NCBI GenBank assembly: GCA_024742735.1
Contig: JANSXV010000010.1
Span: forward strand, 1-41,831
Direction of reading: 5' to 3'
Origin: Alphaproteobacteria bacterium
GTDB lineage: Bacteria > Pseudomonadota > Alphaproteobacteria > Caulobacterales > Maricaulaceae
Length of the DNA stretch: 41,831 nt
The translations under genes were made by a program, and so were the position numbers. Positions 18,919-25,334 of the stretch are shown piece after piece. How positions within the stretch are numbered: position 1 is the stretch's first letter; each line of letters opens with the position of its first letter. Below the pieces are notes generated by a model. That model was not told the origin of the DNA and did no database searches. It worked only from the letters and a program-made list of their open reading frames with translations.

Positions 18919-19764
18919 CTAAACCGCGTCCAGCCCGAAGTCGAAGTTGACCGCGGAATGCGTGATCGCGCCGACGCTGATCACGTCAACGCCGGTTTCT
19001 GCGATGGCGCGGACTGTGTCGATCGTTACCCCGCCGGAGGCTTCCAGCGTGACCTTTCCCTTTGCGGCCATCACAGCCGTGCGCAGGTCGTCGAGGGAGA
19101 AATTATCCAGCAGGACGCTTTCGGCGCCGGCTTCAATCGCATCGCCCAGCTGATCGAGCCGGTCCACCTCCACCGCCACGCGGGTCATGTGGCCGGCGAA
19201 GGCCTTCGCCCGGCGCACCGCTTCGCCGACGCCGCCGCACACGGCCACGTGATTGTCCTTGATCAGGATCGCATCATCCAGGCCGAAGCGGTGGCTCGCT
19301 CCGCCGCCGGCTCGCACGGCCTGCAGCTCCAGCGCGCGCAGGCCGGGCGTGGTCTTGCGGGTGTGGGCGATGACCGCGCCGGTCCCAGCGATCGCGGCGG
19401 CGTAGCGCCGCGTCAGGGTGGCGACGCCGGACAGCCGGCCCAGGAAATTCAGCGCGCTTCGCTCGGCCGTCAAGAGCGAGCGCGCGGGACCTTCAAGGCG
19501 GGCGATCGACTGGCTCTTGTGCACCTCGTCGCCGTCGCAGATGCGCCAGTCACAGGCGATCTCCGGATCCACCTGCGCCATGACTTCCTCGGCGGCCTGG
19601 CGCCCGGAGAGGACGCCTTCGGCGCGGCTGACGATCTCGAACGCCGCCACTGCGTCTTCGGGGATCGTCGCCAGCGAGGTCAGGTCGCCGCGCCCGCCCA
19701 GATCTTCATCCAGGGCCAGCGCCACGATCTCGGCGACGATGCCGCGGGGAACGGGAGGGATCAT
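18919..19764 (-). CDS. nadC: Nicotinate-nucleotide pyrophosphorylase (quinolinate phosphoribosyltransferase)
   Basis: A 281-residue NadC that condenses quinolinate with PRPP to form nicotinate mononucleotide, CO2 and PPi, the third step of de novo NAD synthesis. Conserved motifs: LDEDLGGRGDLTS, ERSALNFLGRLSGVAT, HTRKTTPGLRALE, KAVRAGGG-like AVRAGGGASHR with FGLDDAILIKDNH, VEVDRLDQL, VLLDNFSLDDLR and LEASGGVTIDTV with the final ISVGAITHS. Length is typical. Its start overlaps the nadB stop by 4 bp, so it is translated with nadB as the last gene of the NAD cluster. Confidence 0.97.
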   Translation of the reverse strand: MIPPVPRGIVAEIVALALDEDLGGRGDLTSLATIPEDAVAAFEIVSRAEGVLSGRQAAEEVMAQVDPEIACDWRICDGDEVHKSQSIARLEGPARSLLTAERSALNFLGRLSGVATLTRRYAAAIAGTGAVIAHTRKTTPGLRALELQAVRAGGGASHRFGLDDAILIKDNHVAVCGGVGEAVRRAKAFAGHMTRVAVEVDRLDQLGDAIEAGAESVLLDNFSLDDLRTAVMAAKGKVTLEASGGVTIDTVRAIAETGVDVISVGAITHSAVNFDFGLDAV

Positions 19765-21290
19765 TCGGCAAACTCCGCCTTGGCGGGGGTGGGAACAGTG
19801 ACAGCGCGAGCGTCGTCCAGCGTCAGACGGGTCGAGACGGCGCGCTCGGACCGCGCAGGGAAGTCGCTGCGGAAATGCCCGCCCCGGCTTTCAGTGCGTT
19901 TCAAAGCGCCGGCGGCGACGAAGCGCGCGGCGATGAGCGCCGGGGCCGGCCCGTAACGCTCCTCCAGCTGATCAATGGCGGCCAACAGGCGTGACAGCCC
20001 GGCGGCGTCGCGCTCAACCCCGGCGTCCAGCGCCATGACCTGGCGCAGGCGCTGCAGCGCCGGGGCCGGCAAGACCGGCGGCGCGGACGGCTCCAGCGGC
20101 TCAAGCGGGCGAGGCGCCGCCTCACGCAGCGCCTGCGCGGCCCGGCGTCCGAACACCAGCCCGTCCAGAAGGGAGTTGGACGCCAGACGGTTCGCGCCGT
20201 GCACGCCCGTGCAGGCGCATTCGCCGACCGCCCAAAGGCCCGGCACGCCGGTGAAGCCATCGAGATCCGTCGCGATGCCGCCCATGTGATAATGCGCGGC
20301 CGGCGCCACGGGGATCGGCGCGCGGCGCGGGTCGATTCCGCCGCTCATGGCGGCTGCAAACACGGCCGGGAATCGATCCGGGAAGGCCTCGCCCACGGCG
20401 GCGCGCGCATCCAGGAGGGCGCCCTCGCCTCGCTTGATCTGGCGATGGACGGCGCGCGCGACCACGTCGCGCGGCGCCAGCTCGGCGTCGGCGTGGACCG
20501 ATTTCATGAAGCGCCGGCCCTTGGCGTCGATCAGGGTCGCGCCCTCCCCACGCAGCGCCTCGGTGGCGAGCGGAGCGGGATCGCGGCCGATATCAATGGC
20601 GGTGGGGTGGAACTGGACGAATTCGGGATCCCGGATCACCGCGCCGAGCTCCGCCGCCATGGCGAGCGCCTGGCCCTGGCTGGTCCAGGGCGTCGTGGTC
20701 ACAGCGTAAAGCCCGCCCAGAGACCCGGTCGCCAGAACCGTGTCCGAGGCCTCGATCCGCTGCAGACCACCGTCTGCGTCACGGGCCAGCACACCGGCGC
20801 ACCCGCCGTTCGCGTCGCGCAGCAGGGTCTCGGCCCGCCAGCCTTCGCGGATGTCGATATGGGGCGCAGCCTTCACGGCCCTGATGAGCGCGGCGAGAAT
20901 ACCCGCACCGGCCTGATCGCCCTTCACCCGGGCGACGCGGGCGCGGCTATGGGCGGCTTCGCGCGACAGGGCCCAGGCCCCGCCCGCCTTCTCGAACGGC
21001 GCGCCCAGCGCGAACAGGTCCTCAATCTCGCGCGGCCCGGCTTCGGCGAGCAGACGCGCGGCGTCTTCATCCACCAGCCCTGCGCCCGCCGCGATCGTGT
21101 CTTCGGCGTGCAGCGCCGGCGCATCATCTCCACCCAGCGCCGCCGCCACCCCGCCCTGCGCCCACGCCGTGGACGCGCCCTCGCCGAGCCTGCCGCCGGT
21201 CAGCAGGACAACGGGCCGCGGCGCGGCGTGCAGCGCGGTCCAGAGCCCGGCAATGCCTGCGCCGGCGATGATGAGGGGGTGGGTCACCAT
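19761..21290 (-). CDS. nadB: L-aspartate oxidase
   Basis: A 509-residue flavoenzyme that oxidises L-aspartate to iminoaspartate, the substrate NadA uses next. The N-terminal FAD fold is LIIAGAGIAGLWTALHAA (GxGxxG), with GEGASTAWAQGGVAAALG, HTD-type region, VLATGSLGGLYAVTTTP, EFVQFHPTAID, EALRGEGATLID, HYHMGGIATDLDG, the FAD-binding WAVGECACTGVHGANRLASN and SLLDGLVFGRRAA. The C-terminal domain is slightly short. The first two codons are ATG-GTG. The stop of the upstream chimeric ORF lies inside this start region (ATGGTGA), giving a 7-bp overlap and probable coupling. Its first 63 bp recur, diverged, at the head of that upstream ORF. Confidence 0.97.
   Translation of the reverse strand: MVTHPLIIAGAGIAGLWTALHAAPRPVVLLTGGRLGEGASTAWAQGGVAAALGGDDAPALHAEDTIAAGAGLVDEDAARLLAEAGPREIEDLFALGAPFEKAGGAWALSREAAHSRARVARVKGDQAGAGILAALIRAVKAAPHIDIREGWRAETLLRDANGGCAGVLARDADGGLQRIEASDTVLATGSLGGLYAVTTTPWTSQGQALAMAAELGAVIRDPEFVQFHPTAIDIGRDPAPLATEALRGEGATLIDAKGRRFMKSVHADAELAPRDVVARAVHRQIKRGEGALLDARAAVGEAFPDRFPAVFAAAMSGGIDPRRAPIPVAPAAHYHMGGIATDLDGFTGVPGLWAVGECACTGVHGANRLASNSLLDGLVFGRRAAQALREAAPRPLEPLEPSAPPVLPAPALQRLRQVMALDAGVERDAAGLSRLLAAIDQLEERYGPAPALIAARFVAAGALKRTESRGGHFRSDFPARSERAVSTRLTLDDARAVTVPTPAKAEFAE
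21224..21286. repeat. 63-bp direct repeat, copy in nadB 5' end
   Basis: This covers codons 2 to about 22 of nadB (the FAD-binding beta-alpha unit). It aligns without gaps to 22261-22323, with 8 differences in 63 positions by my count (about 87% identity). This is the ancestral copy because it is an essential part of the nadB coding sequence. Confidence 0.85.
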
Positions 21291-22324
21291 GGAACTATTG
21301 ATCCGTCCTCGTGCCTTAACACCCGCTGGCAGACATAGGGCGCATTCAGCATCAGCGCGTCGGAATAAGTGAGAGGCCAGCGATCTGCACAGCGGCGCTC
21401 CACGCAGAAGCAGGCGACGAAATACCCATCATCGGCAAAGTCATCCGCCTCTTCAGCGGGCCTCGGAGTGAATATCTGCGTCGGACGATGAGCCGGATTC
21501 GAACGAAAGCGATTGAGAGGCGACCGAGCGAACCCCTCATGAATGCTCAGCCTCGTACCGATCACACCGCTCTCATCAGTCTGCGGGTCAGGTCCGTCGA
21601 GTAGCGTCAAGCCGGCGACCTCAAGCAGTCCGCGCTCAACTGCTCCAGGCAATTGCGCGACATCCAAGTCACCAGCCACTCCACGATTGCCTTCGCCGAC
21701 AACGCGGCGGCCGGGACCAGTCTCGACAGATATGATCCGCACGTCCGACAACTCCACGCGCGCAGAGGCGCTGCTGTGGCAATATCCAGACGTCCAGACA
21801 ATCAGATCCGGATTGGCATCCTGATAGGCGCGGTTCGCAACATAGGCCTGCCTGCAATAATTCCGCAGAAACCCGACCAGCTCCACCCACGCCCCGTCAA
21901 GTGCCTGGAACTCCGGCTGTGGGTCGTGAAACGACATGATCTTGAGGTCGGGCTGAAAGTACCAGAACTGCCCTGGCTCACGTTGGAGGTCGCCGATCGA
22001 GTCGACGATTGAAGCCTGGCTGAGATGAGTCAGCCCGACTCGAACTTCTCCAACCAATCGGACCCATGAACACTCCAGAGAAGAGGGCTCGTATAAATTC
22101 TGCGCCGCTTCTCCGAAAAGAGTCTCAGAGACGCCCACCCAGACCGCTTGCTCTGGTGAGGCCGCCTCCCGCGGCGTCTCGGCCGCGTCCACATCGAACC
22201 AGCACTCTATCGGATCACCCTGAATGGCGCCCGCAGCTTCTGCATCGGCGCCAACCGCTGCGGCGTGCGGCGCGGTCCAGAGGGCTGCGATCCCGGCGCC
22301 GGCGATGATGAGGAGGTGGGTCAT
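21284..22324 (-). CDS. Chimeric ORF: nadB 5' end fused to an unknown protein
   Basis: A 346-residue ORF between nadA and nadB. Residues 1-~22 (MTHLLIIAGAGIAALWTAPH) copy the NadB N-terminus. From ~residue 24 (VGADAEAAGAIQGDPIECWF) it is unrelated, with blocks SLECSWVRLVGEVRVGLTHL, GAWVELVGFLRNYCRQAYVA, LIVWTSGYCHSSASARVELS and a C-terminal ADRWPLTYSDALMLNAPYVC. I recognise no family. Several cysteines and tryptophans would suit an exported protein, and the NadB-derived hydrophobic run followed by PHAAAVGA could by chance serve as a signal-like segment, but it lacks basic residues. Base composition is clearly less GC-rich than in nadA or nadB. It ends inside the nadB start. It may be a functional acquired gene or a decaying insertion that has kept an open frame. 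Confidence 0.65.
   Translation of the reverse strand: MTHLLIIAGAGIAALWTAPHAAAVGADAEAAGAIQGDPIECWFDVDAAETPREAASPEQAVWVGVSETLFGEAAQNLYEPSSLECSWVRLVGEVRVGLTHLSQASIVDSIGDLQREPGQFWYFQPDLKIMSFHDPQPEFQALDGAWVELVGFLRNYCRQAYVANRAYQDANPDLIVWTSGYCHSSASARVELSDVRIISVETGPGRRVVGEGNRGVAGDLDVAQLPGAVERGLLEVAGLTLLDGPDPQTDESGVIGTRLSIHEGFARSPLNRFRSNPAHRPTQIFTPRPAEEADDFADDGYFVACFCVERRCADRWPLTYSDALMLNAPYVCQRVLRHEDGSIVPW
22261..22323. repeat. 63-bp direct repeat, copy at head of chimeric ORF
   Basis: Ungapped match to 21224-21286 (nadB codons 2-22). The chimeric ORF's ATG corresponds to the GTG second codon of nadB. The two copies bracket about 974 bp of lower-GC sequence, which is the layout expected if a segment was inserted with duplication of the nadB 5' end. 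Confidence 0.85.
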
Positions 22325-22340
22325 AGGTCTTTCGCTTCAG

Positions 22341-22438
22341 CCCCCACCCCGGCCCTCCCCCGAGGGGGAGGGAGAAGTGAGCGGTGCGATGATCGGAACA
22401 GGTCTCCCTCCCCTTGAGGGGAGGGTCGGGGTGGGGTG
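22341..22438 (-). repeat. Dispersed palindromic repeat B, copy 2
   Basis: A 98-bp element between nadA and the chimeric ORF, starting 9 bp after the nadA stop. Read on the minus strand it starts CACCCCACCCCGACCCTCCC, has a CTCAAG hairpin arm, a short core, then a CTCGGG hairpin arm ending CCGGGGTGGGGG. This is the same architecture as 12532-12687 with an unrelated, shorter core. The two stable hairpins could attenuate transcription or protect the nadA message. Confidence 0.85.
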
Positions 22439-22446
22439 CGCGGTCG

Positions 22447-23562
22447 CTAGACCGCTACATACGGCACGGCGACCGCGTCGCGGCCCGTGTCGAAGTGCGG
22501 CGGCTTGTCGGCCTTGGGCAGGTCGAGCATCGCCTGCAACGACGCGCGCGCCTTCGCGGCGATGACCGGATCGACGGTCACCTCGTGTTTTAAATCGCGC
22601 AGGGCTTCGTAGATGCCGGTCAGCGTGATGCGCTTCATGTGCGGGCACAGATTGCAGGGCTTCACGAACTGAACGCCGGGATTCTCCACCGCCACATTGT
22701 CGCTCATGGAGCATTCGGTGATCAGGATCGCTTTTTTCGGGCTGTGATCCTTCACATAGCCGGCCATGGCCCCCGTCGACCCGGCGAAGTCCGCCTTTGC
22801 CATCACCTCCGGCGGGCACTCGGGGTGGGTCAGGATCACCGCGTCAGGGTGGGCCGCGCGCAGGTCTTCGATGTCCTCCGGCGTGAACTGCTCGTGGACT
22901 TCGCAGGAGCCCTTCCAGGTCAGGATCTTGATGTCGGTCTGGGCGGCGACGTTCTTGGCCAGGTACTCGTCGGGGATCATGATCACCGTGTCGACGCCCC
23001 ACTGGGCCGCCACCGCCTCGACCACCTGCACGGCGTTGGAGCTGGTGCAGCAGATGTCGGCATACGCCTTCACGTCGGCGGAGGTGTTCACATAGGTGAC
23101 GATGGGCAGATCGGGATAGGCCGCCTTGATGCGCTGCACGTCCTCGCCGGTGATGGAAGCGGCCAGCGAACAGCCCGCCTCCATGTCCGGGATCAGCACC
23201 GTCTTGTTCGGGGAGAGGATTTTCGCGGTCTCGGCCATGAAGTGCACGCCGGCCTGGACGATCACGTCCTCCTCGGCTTCAGCCGCGACCTGGGCGAGCT
23301 TCAGGGAATCCCCCGTGATATCGCCGACGCAGTTGAAGATTTCCGGCGTCATGTAGTTGTGGGCGAGGATGGTCGCGCCGCGCTGTTCCTTCAGGCGCAG
23401 GATCCCATCAATGAGGGGTGCGAATTTCGGCCACTCCATGGGCGTGATCACGTCCTTTACGCGCTCATAGAGATGATCCACGCGCGCCCTAACCGCATCG
23501 TCATAGACGAGCGCGTCAGCCTGTGGCCATTGCGTGTCGGCGCTGAAAGTCATGCCGTCCAT
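22447..23562 (-). CDS. nadA: Quinolinate synthase A
   Basis: A 371-residue [4Fe-4S] enzyme that condenses iminoaspartate with dihydroxyacetone phosphate to quinolinate. Motifs: ATILAHNYMTPEIF, VGDITGDSLKLAQVAAE, VQAGVHFMAETAKILSP, LIPDMEAGCSLA (first cluster Cys), YVNTSADVKAYADICCTSSN, HPECPPEV (second Cys region), FAGSTGAM, and FVKPCNLCPHMKRITL with the last cluster Cys. It belongs to the longer, E. coli-like form. GGGAGGCGACC precedes the ATG, supporting this start. It is the first structural gene of the NAD cluster and has its own 168-bp upstream region with two operator-like inverted repeats. Confidence 0.98.
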   Translation of the reverse strand: MDGMTFSADTQWPQADALVYDDAVRARVDHLYERVKDVITPMEWPKFAPLIDGILRLKEQRGATILAHNYMTPEIFNCVGDITGDSLKLAQVAAEAEEDVIVQAGVHFMAETAKILSPNKTVLIPDMEAGCSLAASITGEDVQRIKAAYPDLPIVTYVNTSADVKAYADICCTSSNAVQVVEAVAAQWGVDTVIMIPDEYLAKNVAAQTDIKILTWKGSCEVHEQFTPEDIEDLRAAHPDAVILTHPECPPEVMAKADFAGSTGAMAGYVKDHSPKKAILITECSMSDNVAVENPGVQFVKPCNLCPHMKRITLTGIYEALRDLKHEVTVDPVIAAKARASLQAMLDLPKADKPPHFDTGRDAVAVPYVAV

Positions 23563-23591
23563 GGTCGCCTCCCGGTCGAATCGCGGCGGGG

Positions 23592-23613
23592 TTTTTGCTC
23601 GATTTGAGCATTT
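23592..23613. promoter_or_regulatory. Operator candidate 1 upstream of nadA
   Basis: The perfect inverted repeat TGCTC-GATTT-GAGCA (23596-23610) in a T-rich/AT-rich frame (TTTT before, TTT after), 30 bp upstream of the nadA start codon. A near-identical site lies 65 bp away. On the minus strand TTGCAG (about 23629-23634) and AATGCT may form a promoter overlapping this site, which would allow repression; the promoter call is weak. The adjacent NadQ-like gene is the obvious candidate regulator. Confidence 0.65.
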
Positions 23614-23656
23614 CTCCGGCGCGAAGGTGCTGCAAAACGAAGGGGTCGCTGCAGCA

Positions 23657-23677
23657 GTTTTGCTCCAAGTGAGCCTA
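23657..23677. promoter_or_regulatory. Operator candidate 2 upstream of nadA
   Basis: TTTTGCTC-CAAGT-GAGCCTAA carries the same GCTC-N5-GAGC core as the site at 23592-23613, on the same side and 65 bp further from nadA (about six helical turns). Two spaced copies of one palindrome upstream of nadA, with a DNA-binding Nudix-type regulator gene next door, point to a cooperative or looping NAD-responsive operator. Confidence 0.6.
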
Positions 23678-23730
23678 AGGTGGGCGCGAACTATACCCCT
23701 GGCAAGCCCCTTGGCAAGCGCTGCGGCGAA

Positions 23731-24714
23731 TTATCCGTCCTTCAATCGTGGGATCGAGAGGCCCAGCGCGTCACCAGAACGCAACGTCGCGCGCACGAAG
23801 CGGTGCAGTTCGGCCGGTCGCCCGCCGGTCTTCGCCTCCATGCGGCCCGTGCCTTCGACAAAACCGGCGCGGTCCAGCGCCCGGCGGAAGTTCTGCTTGT
23901 GCAGCGGGAAGCCTGCGATGCTCTCCACCAGTCTTTGCAGGTGGGACAGGGTGAATTCGGCAGGCGTCAGCTCGAAGACGACCGGGCGATACTTGATCTT
24001 GCCGCGCAGGCGCGACAGCGCAGTCGCCAGGATCCTGCGGTGATCGGACGCCATGGCCTGCCCCAGCGTCACCGGACCAGCCGCCTCCCCCCGGTCGCGG
24101 GCGGCCTCGGCCACCAGACCGGCCTCGTACAGGAGTTCATAGCGATCCAGCGCCCGCTCCTCGCTCCACGGCGCGCCGTCCAGGGCGAAGGTCAGGCGCA
24201 CCCGGTCATAACGCGCCGCCCGGCGGCCTGGCGCGGCGGCTTCGTCAGCCCAGGAGCGCAAGGCCGGCTCGATCACCTCGCTCAGGATGGCCGGCTTGCC
24301 GTCGCGATGGTCCTCCCACGGGAAGAAGCGCGACCAGGCGACCCAGCGCGCCTCAGCGCCCTTCAGCGCCCGCGCTTCGGGCGTGAGGCCGAGATACCCC
24401 ACGGAGATCACGCGCGCATCCTCCGCGCCGGCGAGCGCGGCCACCGGCGCCTCCCGTCCCCGGTCGCCGAAAGTGTAGAGCTGCTCGACATAGCCCAACT
24501 CGAACCCGGTCTGGCCACGCACCCATTCGCGCAGGCCGATCTCGAAGGTGCGATGGGTTTCCGGATCGAACGGACCGAAGGGCAAGGCCGGCTGGCCGCC
24601 GTCCAGGCTCTCGGTCACCAGCACGTTCAGCTCGCCCTCGTCAGCGGCGAAGATCACCGCGTTCAGTCCGACGACGACGCGGCCCAGCGCGCCAGGATCG
24701 ATTTCCGGCTTCAT
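23731..24714 (-). CDS. nadQ: NadQ-like (COG4111) Nudix-winged-helix regulator
   Basis: A 327-residue protein with an N-terminal Nudix-like fold and a C-terminal winged helix (LSRLRGKIKYRPVVFELTPAEFTLSHLQRLVESI...KQNFRRALDRAGFVEGTG), the architecture of NadQ/NrtR-type regulators that sense NAD-related nucleotides. The Nudix box is degenerate: at residues 62-70, REWVRGQTG replaces REUxEExGU, losing the metal-binding Glu pair. It is therefore probably a ligand sensor and not a hydrolase. It lies just upstream of nadA on the same strand and overlaps the upstream HD-hydrolase gene by 4 bp. Two similar palindromes precede nadA, which supports regulation of nadA (and the following nad genes). The symbol rests on architecture and context. 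Confidence 0.85.
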   Translation of the reverse strand: MKPEIDPGALGRVVVGLNAVIFAADEGELNVLVTESLDGGQPALPFGPFDPETHRTFEIGLREWVRGQTGFELGYVEQLYTFGDRGREAPVAALAGAEDARVISVGYLGLTPEARALKGAEARWVAWSRFFPWEDHRDGKPAILSEVIEPALRSWADEAAAPGRRAARYDRVRLTFALDGAPWSEERALDRYELLYEAGLVAEAARDRGEAAGPVTLGQAMASDHRRILATALSRLRGKIKYRPVVFELTPAEFTLSHLQRLVESIAGFPLHKQNFRRALDRAGFVEGTGRMEAKTGGRPAELHRFVRATLRSGDALGLSIPRLKDG

Positions 24715-25334
24715 GCCCGCGCCTCGCGCTCGACCCGGCGCAGCAGCGCCTCGAAGCGCTCCAGGAACTGGACCTGCGCCGCCGCGGCGGGCTTGGGCTT
24801 GATCGCCACGGTCAGACCCTTGGGCGGACGGCCGAAGAATTTGCGCGCCTCCTCCACGGAGAAGCCGGCGATCTTGGTGGCTTCAAAGAAGGCGCAAACC
24901 CGGTCCGCGCGCTTGATCACCGCATGGACGCTTTTCGGAAGCTCGGCGGGCAGGCCGTAACGCATGTGGATCGCCCCCTCCAGCCGGGCCTCGAACGCCT
25001 TGTAGTCATAGCCCAACGCCGCCTTGAACGGGGAGATCATGTCCCCGATCACATATTCAGGCGCGTCATGCAGCAGTGCGGCCAGGCGCCACTTGCCCGG
25101 CCAGTCCGGCTCAAGCTTGCCGCAGATCTGCTCCACGATGACCGAATGCTCGGCGACGGAAAAGGCGTGATCGCCCTCGGTCTGTCCGTTCCAGCGCGCG
25201 ACCCGCGCCAGACCTTGCGCGATGTCGTCGATCTCCACGTCGAACGGGGACGGGTCCAGCAGATCCAGCCGCCGCCCTGAGAGCATGCGTTGCCAGGCCC
25301 GGGGCGGTTGTGTTTTCGATGAAAGGCGCGCCAC
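24711..25334 (-). CDS. HD-domain phosphohydrolase (YfbR-like)
   Basis: A 207-residue HD-superfamily hydrolase. Metal ligands are visible as H63 (FSVAEHSVIVEQI), H89-D90 (AALLHDAPEYVIGDMISPFK) and D144 (KRADRVCAFFEA), the spacing of YfbR-type 5'-deoxynucleotidases and relatives. It probably dephosphorylates a nucleoside monophosphate in the cytosol. Its 4-bp overlap with the NadQ-like gene suggests a role linked to nicotinamide or other nucleotide turnover, which is inference from context only. It diverges from a universal stress protein gene with a 99-bp shared upstream region. Confidence 0.9.
   Translation of the reverse strand: MARLSSKTQPPRAWQRMLSGRRLDLLDPSPFDVEIDDIAQGLARVARWNGQTEGDHAFSVAEHSVIVEQICGKLEPDWPGKWRLAALLHDAPEYVIGDMISPFKAALGYDYKAFEARLEGAIHMRYGLPAELPKSVHAVIKRADRVCAFFEATKIAGFSVEEARKFFGRPPKGLTVAIKPKPAAAAQVQFLERFEALLRRVEREARA

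Follow-up and report, generated by a model that had tools for sequence, protein, structure and literature searches.

Sec signal peptides open with a basic start, followed near the N-terminus by an uncharged hydrophobic stretch and by small residues at the cleavage site. The origin of a bacterial signal peptide is seldom visible, because fast divergence leaves no source.

Two described systems come closest to the locus reported here. In homology-facilitated illegitimate recombination (HFIR), as set out in PMC3240628, one end of the exchange is homologous and the other is not, inserts are ~1 kb on average, and resident DNA of similar size is deleted; the introduction of that paper gives 3–10 bp of microhomology as usual for the joints. 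At T6SS effector genes of Vibrio cholerae, unlike modules are exchanged at one locus, and PMC5361080 suggests an HFIR-like event anchored on a conserved flank, with part of the old locus left beside the newcomer.

The DNA analysed (the window) is a 41,831-nt stretch of a Maricaulaceae genome (contig JANSXV010000010.1; genome G000 below). Between nadA and nadB it carries an open reading frame, here called X, that opens with a copy of the start of nadB (the nadB head). As in HFIR, the X locus was read as one homologous and one non-homologous end around an insert of ~1 kb; unlike in HFIR, no resident coding DNA seems to have been lost, and an in-frame chimera was found three times at one gene. 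Evidence for the homologous end is a shared tract ending in nadB in two other genomes (G022 and G113), with none from the three chimeras themselves. As in T6SS effector displacement, unlike X modules are exchanged at one locus and part of the old locus is retained. Unlike in that case, where whole immunity genes are kept, 18–22 codons of a metabolic gene are kept here and become part of the newcomer; an effector role of X is no part of the likeness. By DNA identity, the source of the head is the N-terminal FAD-binding motif of NadB, and the rest of NadB is absent from X. No paper on capture of a nadB head by X was among the matches listed in literature searches, which is weak evidence.

The nadA-X-nadB locus in the window

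The relevant features of the window are listed by position.

18919–19764, minus strand: nadC, quinolinate phosphoribosyltransferase (Pfam PF01729 and PF02749)
19761–21290, minus strand: nadB, L-aspartate oxidase (Pfam PF00890, E 1.6e-76; NCBIfam NF005701, 664 bits, cut-off 528)
21223–21286, minus strand: nadB head in place, at the nadB start (from the 64-nt repeat)
21284–21290, minus strand: ATGGTGA, the X stop codon inside the nadB start (4-nt GTGA overlap if the nadB start is GTG)
21284–22324, minus strand: X, 346-codon ORF; chimera in which the nadB head (codons 1 to ~22) precedes a Cys-rich body that is probably exported
22260–22323, minus strand: nadB-head copy opening X; probable n- and h-region of a signal peptide (MTHLLIIAGAGIAALWTAPHAAA), from the repeat (8/64 mismatches) and a crude rule
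22325–22446, minus strand: nadA-X spacer with a G-rich inverted repeat, in the same position as same-genus nadA-nadB spacers
22447–23562, minus strand: nadA, quinolinate synthase (Pfam PF02445; NCBIfam NF006878)
23563–23730, no strand assigned: nadA upstream region with two TTTGCTCNANNTGAGC palindromes (23594–23609 and 23659–23674), a candidate NrtR operator

An earlier note on this DNA had described an ungapped 63-bp repeat of the nadB head at the start of X. The repeat was recovered: positions 22260–22323 aligned with 21223–21286 on the minus strand over 64 nt, without gaps and with 8 mismatches (56/64 identical), and local alignment of the nadB head to 1.8 kb of upstream DNA scored 43, the maximum over 40 shuffles of the head being 15. 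When the window's own genome was searched with X, the sole matches were X itself and the head in nadB. Relative to the nadB head, the X head has Leu for Pro, Ala for the third glycine of GxGxxG and Pro for Leu; it matched the nadB head of G010 at 50/57 positions and its own nadB at 49/57. Two further statements of the note also held. X was less GC-rich (GC 60.7%, GC3 65.7%) than nadB (73.5%, 84.5%), nadA (63.5%, 87.1%) and the window (66.4% GC), and X ended in the nadB start, its TGA stop lying within ATGGTGA. The GTG of this motif is the codon aligned with the nadB starts of relatives; with this start, X overlaps nadB by 4 nt (NTGA) in 8/8 nad-located X genes.

Annotation of 18919–25334 gave nadC, nadB, nadA, an NrtR-like protein and an HD-domain protein as neighbours. 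No integrase was found in the insert or beside X in this interval, and the ~1-kb insert consisted of X only. The NrtR-like regulator gene (23731–24714; Pfam NrtR_WHD match, NCBIfam score below cut-off) lies beside nadA, and the two TTTGCTCNANNTGAGC palindromes upstream of nadA compare with a mean of 0.03 in shuffles. Since an NrtR-like protein adjoins nadA with two palindromes between them, X may be transcribed with NAD synthesis, and NAD-responsive control of nadA-X-nadB-nadC is possible. The G-rich inverted repeat of the nadA-X spacer occupies 22342–22436 (34-nt arms, 88%); similar-looking repeats were seen in nadA-nadB spacers of several same-genus relatives.

Distribution, exchange and chimeric starts of X

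Junctions between nadA and nadB were readable in 61 of the 137 genomes of the taxonomic family (nadA was found in 104 and nadB in 103 at the cut-offs used). A junction was called empty by length (gap ≤300 nt); G003, in which no nadA was found, was left out. Forty junctions were taken as empty (39 by gap length, plus G125), 8 contained X, and 13 had longer gaps without X. The other readable junctions of the window's genus were all empty (13/13). Eight of the nine family X genes lay immediately before nadB (the G113 record is without nadA and the X start), and no nad gene was found within the fetched stretch near X of G089 or of eight loci outside the family. Other variation was observed at these loci. 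In G116, a Macro-domain gene (Pfam PF01661, E 1.7e-44; L042, 767–1285) lies between nadA and X. In L072 and L073 (G120 and G121; genus g9, Maricaulis), the junction holds another gene, of 141 codons, and a similar-looking one is seen in L093 (G025). At nadB codons ~375–450, loci of genus g9 showed gaps and an identity between close species far below that of the rest of the gene.

With profiles, and with the window counted each time, X was found in 9/137 genomes of the family, in 13/398 drawn from the order (some matches being short C-terminal stretches; G194, G421, G425) and in 3/385 drawn from the class. All nine X-bearing family genomes had a single X and no array. With the X body as sole query, 2/60 relatives matched. 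In each, the match lay between nadA and nadB and began with its own signal-peptide-like sequence; tblastn with the window X body gave relatives down to E 5e-14. A scan of genome contigs gave no match with X alone as query and four Maricaulis loci with alignment A3. Several Cys residues and a CxC-WPL-D-C C-terminus were conserved across 11 aligned sequences and kept in the chimeras. X relatives outside nad had signal-peptide-like N-terminal stretches; in these relatives and in the chimeras alike, the first conserved Cys falls near residue 40.

No credible X relative was found in Pfam, NCBIfam, PADLOC, PHROGs, PDB sequences, plasmids or phages (the phages searched with the G117 protein). Window X had no Pfam match at E up to 1, hence no match to the NadB FAD-binding domain, and its GxGxxG has Ala as third Gly; weak FAD-family matches (E 0.07–0.12) appeared in 1–2 of 11 X proteins. 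Two structure predictions of X had a mean pLDDT of 40. X belongs to an old, unnamed, Cys-rich and apparently exported family, export being likely from the N-termini of relatives and the Cys content. The description of X as a new gene was therefore abandoned: the family already exists, with members that have a signal-peptide-like start in that place, and the novelty is the N-terminal part. Its remainder had also been called unrelated, which was correct with respect to nadB and incorrect otherwise, as a search for body relatives with N-termini of their own found them. The same N-terminus was not found outside nad operons, where X relatives differ N-terminally and 4/4 tested were without a head repeat.

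The nadB head opened X in the genomes of three related, marine bacteria (G000, G115 and G117), that is, at 3/61 junctions and in 3/7 nad-located X genes with a readable start. G115 and G117 belong to the genus Maricaulis; G115 was placed there by its shared genus label g9 only. Head-repeat scores exceeded shuffles by at least 28 points in these three and by at most 3 in other loci, G113 and G125 having too little upstream DNA to reveal a repeat. In G115, the X head matched its own nadB at 54/54 nt and continued as FQLTLATPAQA. In G117, the match was 56/58, with both differences synonymous and TSPLVAQ following. The nadB of G125 differed from the G115 head at 4/54 nt. Each head matched the nadB of its own lineage. 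Joint positions differed among the chimeras (~codons 18, 19 and 22). The earlier note mentions neither the capture in two further genomes nor the head's likely role as a signal peptide.

Signal-peptide-like starts unlike nadB were found at the same place in X of G114, G116 and G036. The X start of G022, likewise signal-peptide-like, scored 13 against the nadB head, the maximum among 83 control starts being 12 (two start choices tried), and may be an eroded nadB head. Two broader proposals were rejected. Erosion of nadB heads as the origin of every X signal peptide was dismissed on the scores of G114, G116 and G036, which fell within those of 83 signal-peptide-like control starts from G022. That X captures the head of whichever gene follows was dismissed on G350, G276, G188 and G089, which had no head repeat. 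In a tree of X bodies, the nad-located genes grouped weakly (68/52), and one clade of the three chimeras occurred in 0% of 200 bootstrap trees; the tree is weakened by long branches, and its well-supported branches alone are compatible with a single chimera origin.

X is exchanged between species rather than fast-evolving. Identity was 98% in nadA and 31% in X between G116 and G117, and 96% and 43% between G022 and G114. Between G022 and G113, X was 95% and nadB 89% identical (dS 0.059 vs 0.50), with a dN/dS of 0.47 on 28 changes in X. Twelve 50-nt bins of this pair, 351 to 950 (~480 nt of the X 3' part and ~142 nt of nadB), held 3 mismatches; the first 350 nt, inside X, held 26, and divergence past ~nt 142 of nadB was 12.6%. 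This shared tract shows that X sequence moves together with the nadB 5' end; its left edge lies inside X, so movement of the whole of X is not demonstrated by that tract. Sliding identity gave no clear donor tract in nadB of the window, G115 or G117, nor was any donor X found that retained its former signal peptide. The X of G113 (L064), from a contig-end MAG record, has an in-frame TAG (decay or sequencing error). Exchange of unlike X proteins between close species might be said to recall arms-race genes.

Order of events and the head as a possible signal peptide

Among the nadB genes compared, that of G125 is nearest to G115. It directly follows nadA, and the 47 nt before it were 46/47 identical to the 47 nt before X of G115. 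In G118 (empty; not the nearest relative of G117), the leader resembles that before X in G117. Since leaders before X match leaders before nadB in empty relatives, X sits where nadB began. The G125 record is 69% complete and its contig begins at the nadA-nadB junction, and the G115/G125 picture would look the same had X been lost by a crossover between heads. Insertion is favoured by the low identity of X proteins between close species, 28–43%, compared with 93–98% for nadA (G115, G022 and G114; G116 and G117), and from these sequences we infer insertion as the order of events. The proposal that an insertion left nadB whole and gave X the nadB start codon and leader agrees with the 13/13 X-free junctions of the genus and with G115/G125, which resembles a filled/empty pair.

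The uncharged N-terminal run, by a crude rule, was 26 residues in X vs 23 in NadB in G000, 31 vs 16 in G115 and 23 vs 16 in G117; the cleavage-site part of the rule does not discriminate, as it also fits NadB itself (LWA, LHA). In the window, the best 12-residue hydrophobicity was 2.61 for the X head and 2.03 for its nadB source. By the same crude rule, all three chimeras have a hydrophobic N-terminal stretch, as Sec signal peptides do. Residue 3 is Arg in G115 and G117, and AQA in G115 could offer small residues for cleavage; in the window head, His stands ahead of the stretch, with neither Lys nor Arg. The joints lie near the end of the first hydrophobic helix of NadB, after which charged residues (K..APR in Maricaulis) continue NadB and uncharged residues continue X. 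The copy of the nadB head is now probably an export tag of X. Unlike those of usual Sec signal peptides, the chimera starts are traceable in DNA to a neighbouring cytosolic enzyme.

Proposed mechanism, alternatives and implications

The reading that we favour, with a little better than even confidence, is that incoming X-nadB DNA was joined into the resident nadB head, which now serves as the start codon, ribosome site and hydrophobic signal-peptide part of X. On this view, X would encode an exported, Cys-rich protein and pass laterally among Maricaulaceae as part of nadA-X-nadB operons, with recombination in the nad genes on either side as its means of transfer. An incoming X body with a nadB 5' end would, in three lineages, have recombined by homology in nadB at one end, and the other end would have been joined without long homology into resident nadB at ~codons 18–22, presumably by an illegitimate joint. 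The resident head would thereby have come to open X, contributing a ribosome-binding site and start codon as well as the n-region and the hydrophobic h-region, with everything beyond these coming from X itself; a complete nadB would be restored downstream, starting in the X stop codon. In NadB, the FAD-binding first strand and helix (MTRPVLIIGAGIAGLWAAL) would already resemble a signal-peptide h-region, and exchange of the charged continuation for uncharged residues would direct X to Sec export. The window head would since have lost the third glycine of GxGxxG and gained hydrophobicity, and in-frame joints that make a signal peptide would have been kept by selection. One-sided homologous exchange with an illegitimate joint would explain the head, the body, the overlap and the intact nadB in one step. 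Counting against this reading, the identical heads of G115 make it unlikely that the donor in that case belonged to another species, barring later conversion or a closely related donor.

The main rival, to which we give a modest minority of our confidence, is local replacement: a resident X had a signal peptide of its own until a local event (duplication with deletion, gene conversion or template switching) put the cell's nadB head in its place, no donor DNA being needed for the head. The identical heads of G115 and the two changes in G117 fit a copy of the cell's own nadB, and the non-nadB signal-peptide-like starts at the same place in G114, G116 and G036 also speak for this rival; however, the empty junctions of the genus (13/13) and of G125 would mean that a resident X had been lost several times, and conversion in one step would have had to proceed without homology at the 3' edge.

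It is unlikely that the head lends a start codon and leader only, X being not exported and perhaps decaying. The conserved Cys and CxC-WPL-D-C are retained in the chimeras, the frame is open in all three, and the window head is more hydrophobic than its source, all of which speak against this, whereas the in-frame TAG of G113, the G022/G113 dN/dS and the lack of Lys or Arg in the window head speak for it. Less likely still is that the nadB head is a recombination site, like an att site or Campbell integration, through which an X cassette enters and leaves by crossover between head copies. All three chimeras are head-X-head, a head crossover would restore nadA-nadB, and empty and filled sites both occur among relatives, but the 1-kb insert carries X only, some nad-located X genes show no clear head repeat, and each of the nine family genomes has one X in place of an array. 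Assembly error, for which draft contigs could be invoked, has a negligible probability, since three genomes of two genera have the same layout with different head alleles and X is ~20 kb away from either end of its contig.

A wider proposal, held tentatively and at somewhat under even confidence, is that the nucleotide-binding hairpin of a cytosolic enzyme is a ready-made, repeatedly captured signal peptide. Three independent captures, differing from today's source gene at 0, 2 and 8 nt, would form a natural time series, and the nadA-nadB junction would be a cassette site that fits an arriving exported protein with a host leader. At this locus the source lies next to its copy, and the three captures, which differ in apparent age, allow a comparison; the X case may show how part of a cytosolic enzyme becomes a signal peptide. 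It also suggests a route for lateral transfer into a core biosynthetic operon, in which an arriving gene uses the ribosome site and start already in place, while the resident gene is made whole again downstream, overlapping the arrival by 4 nt.
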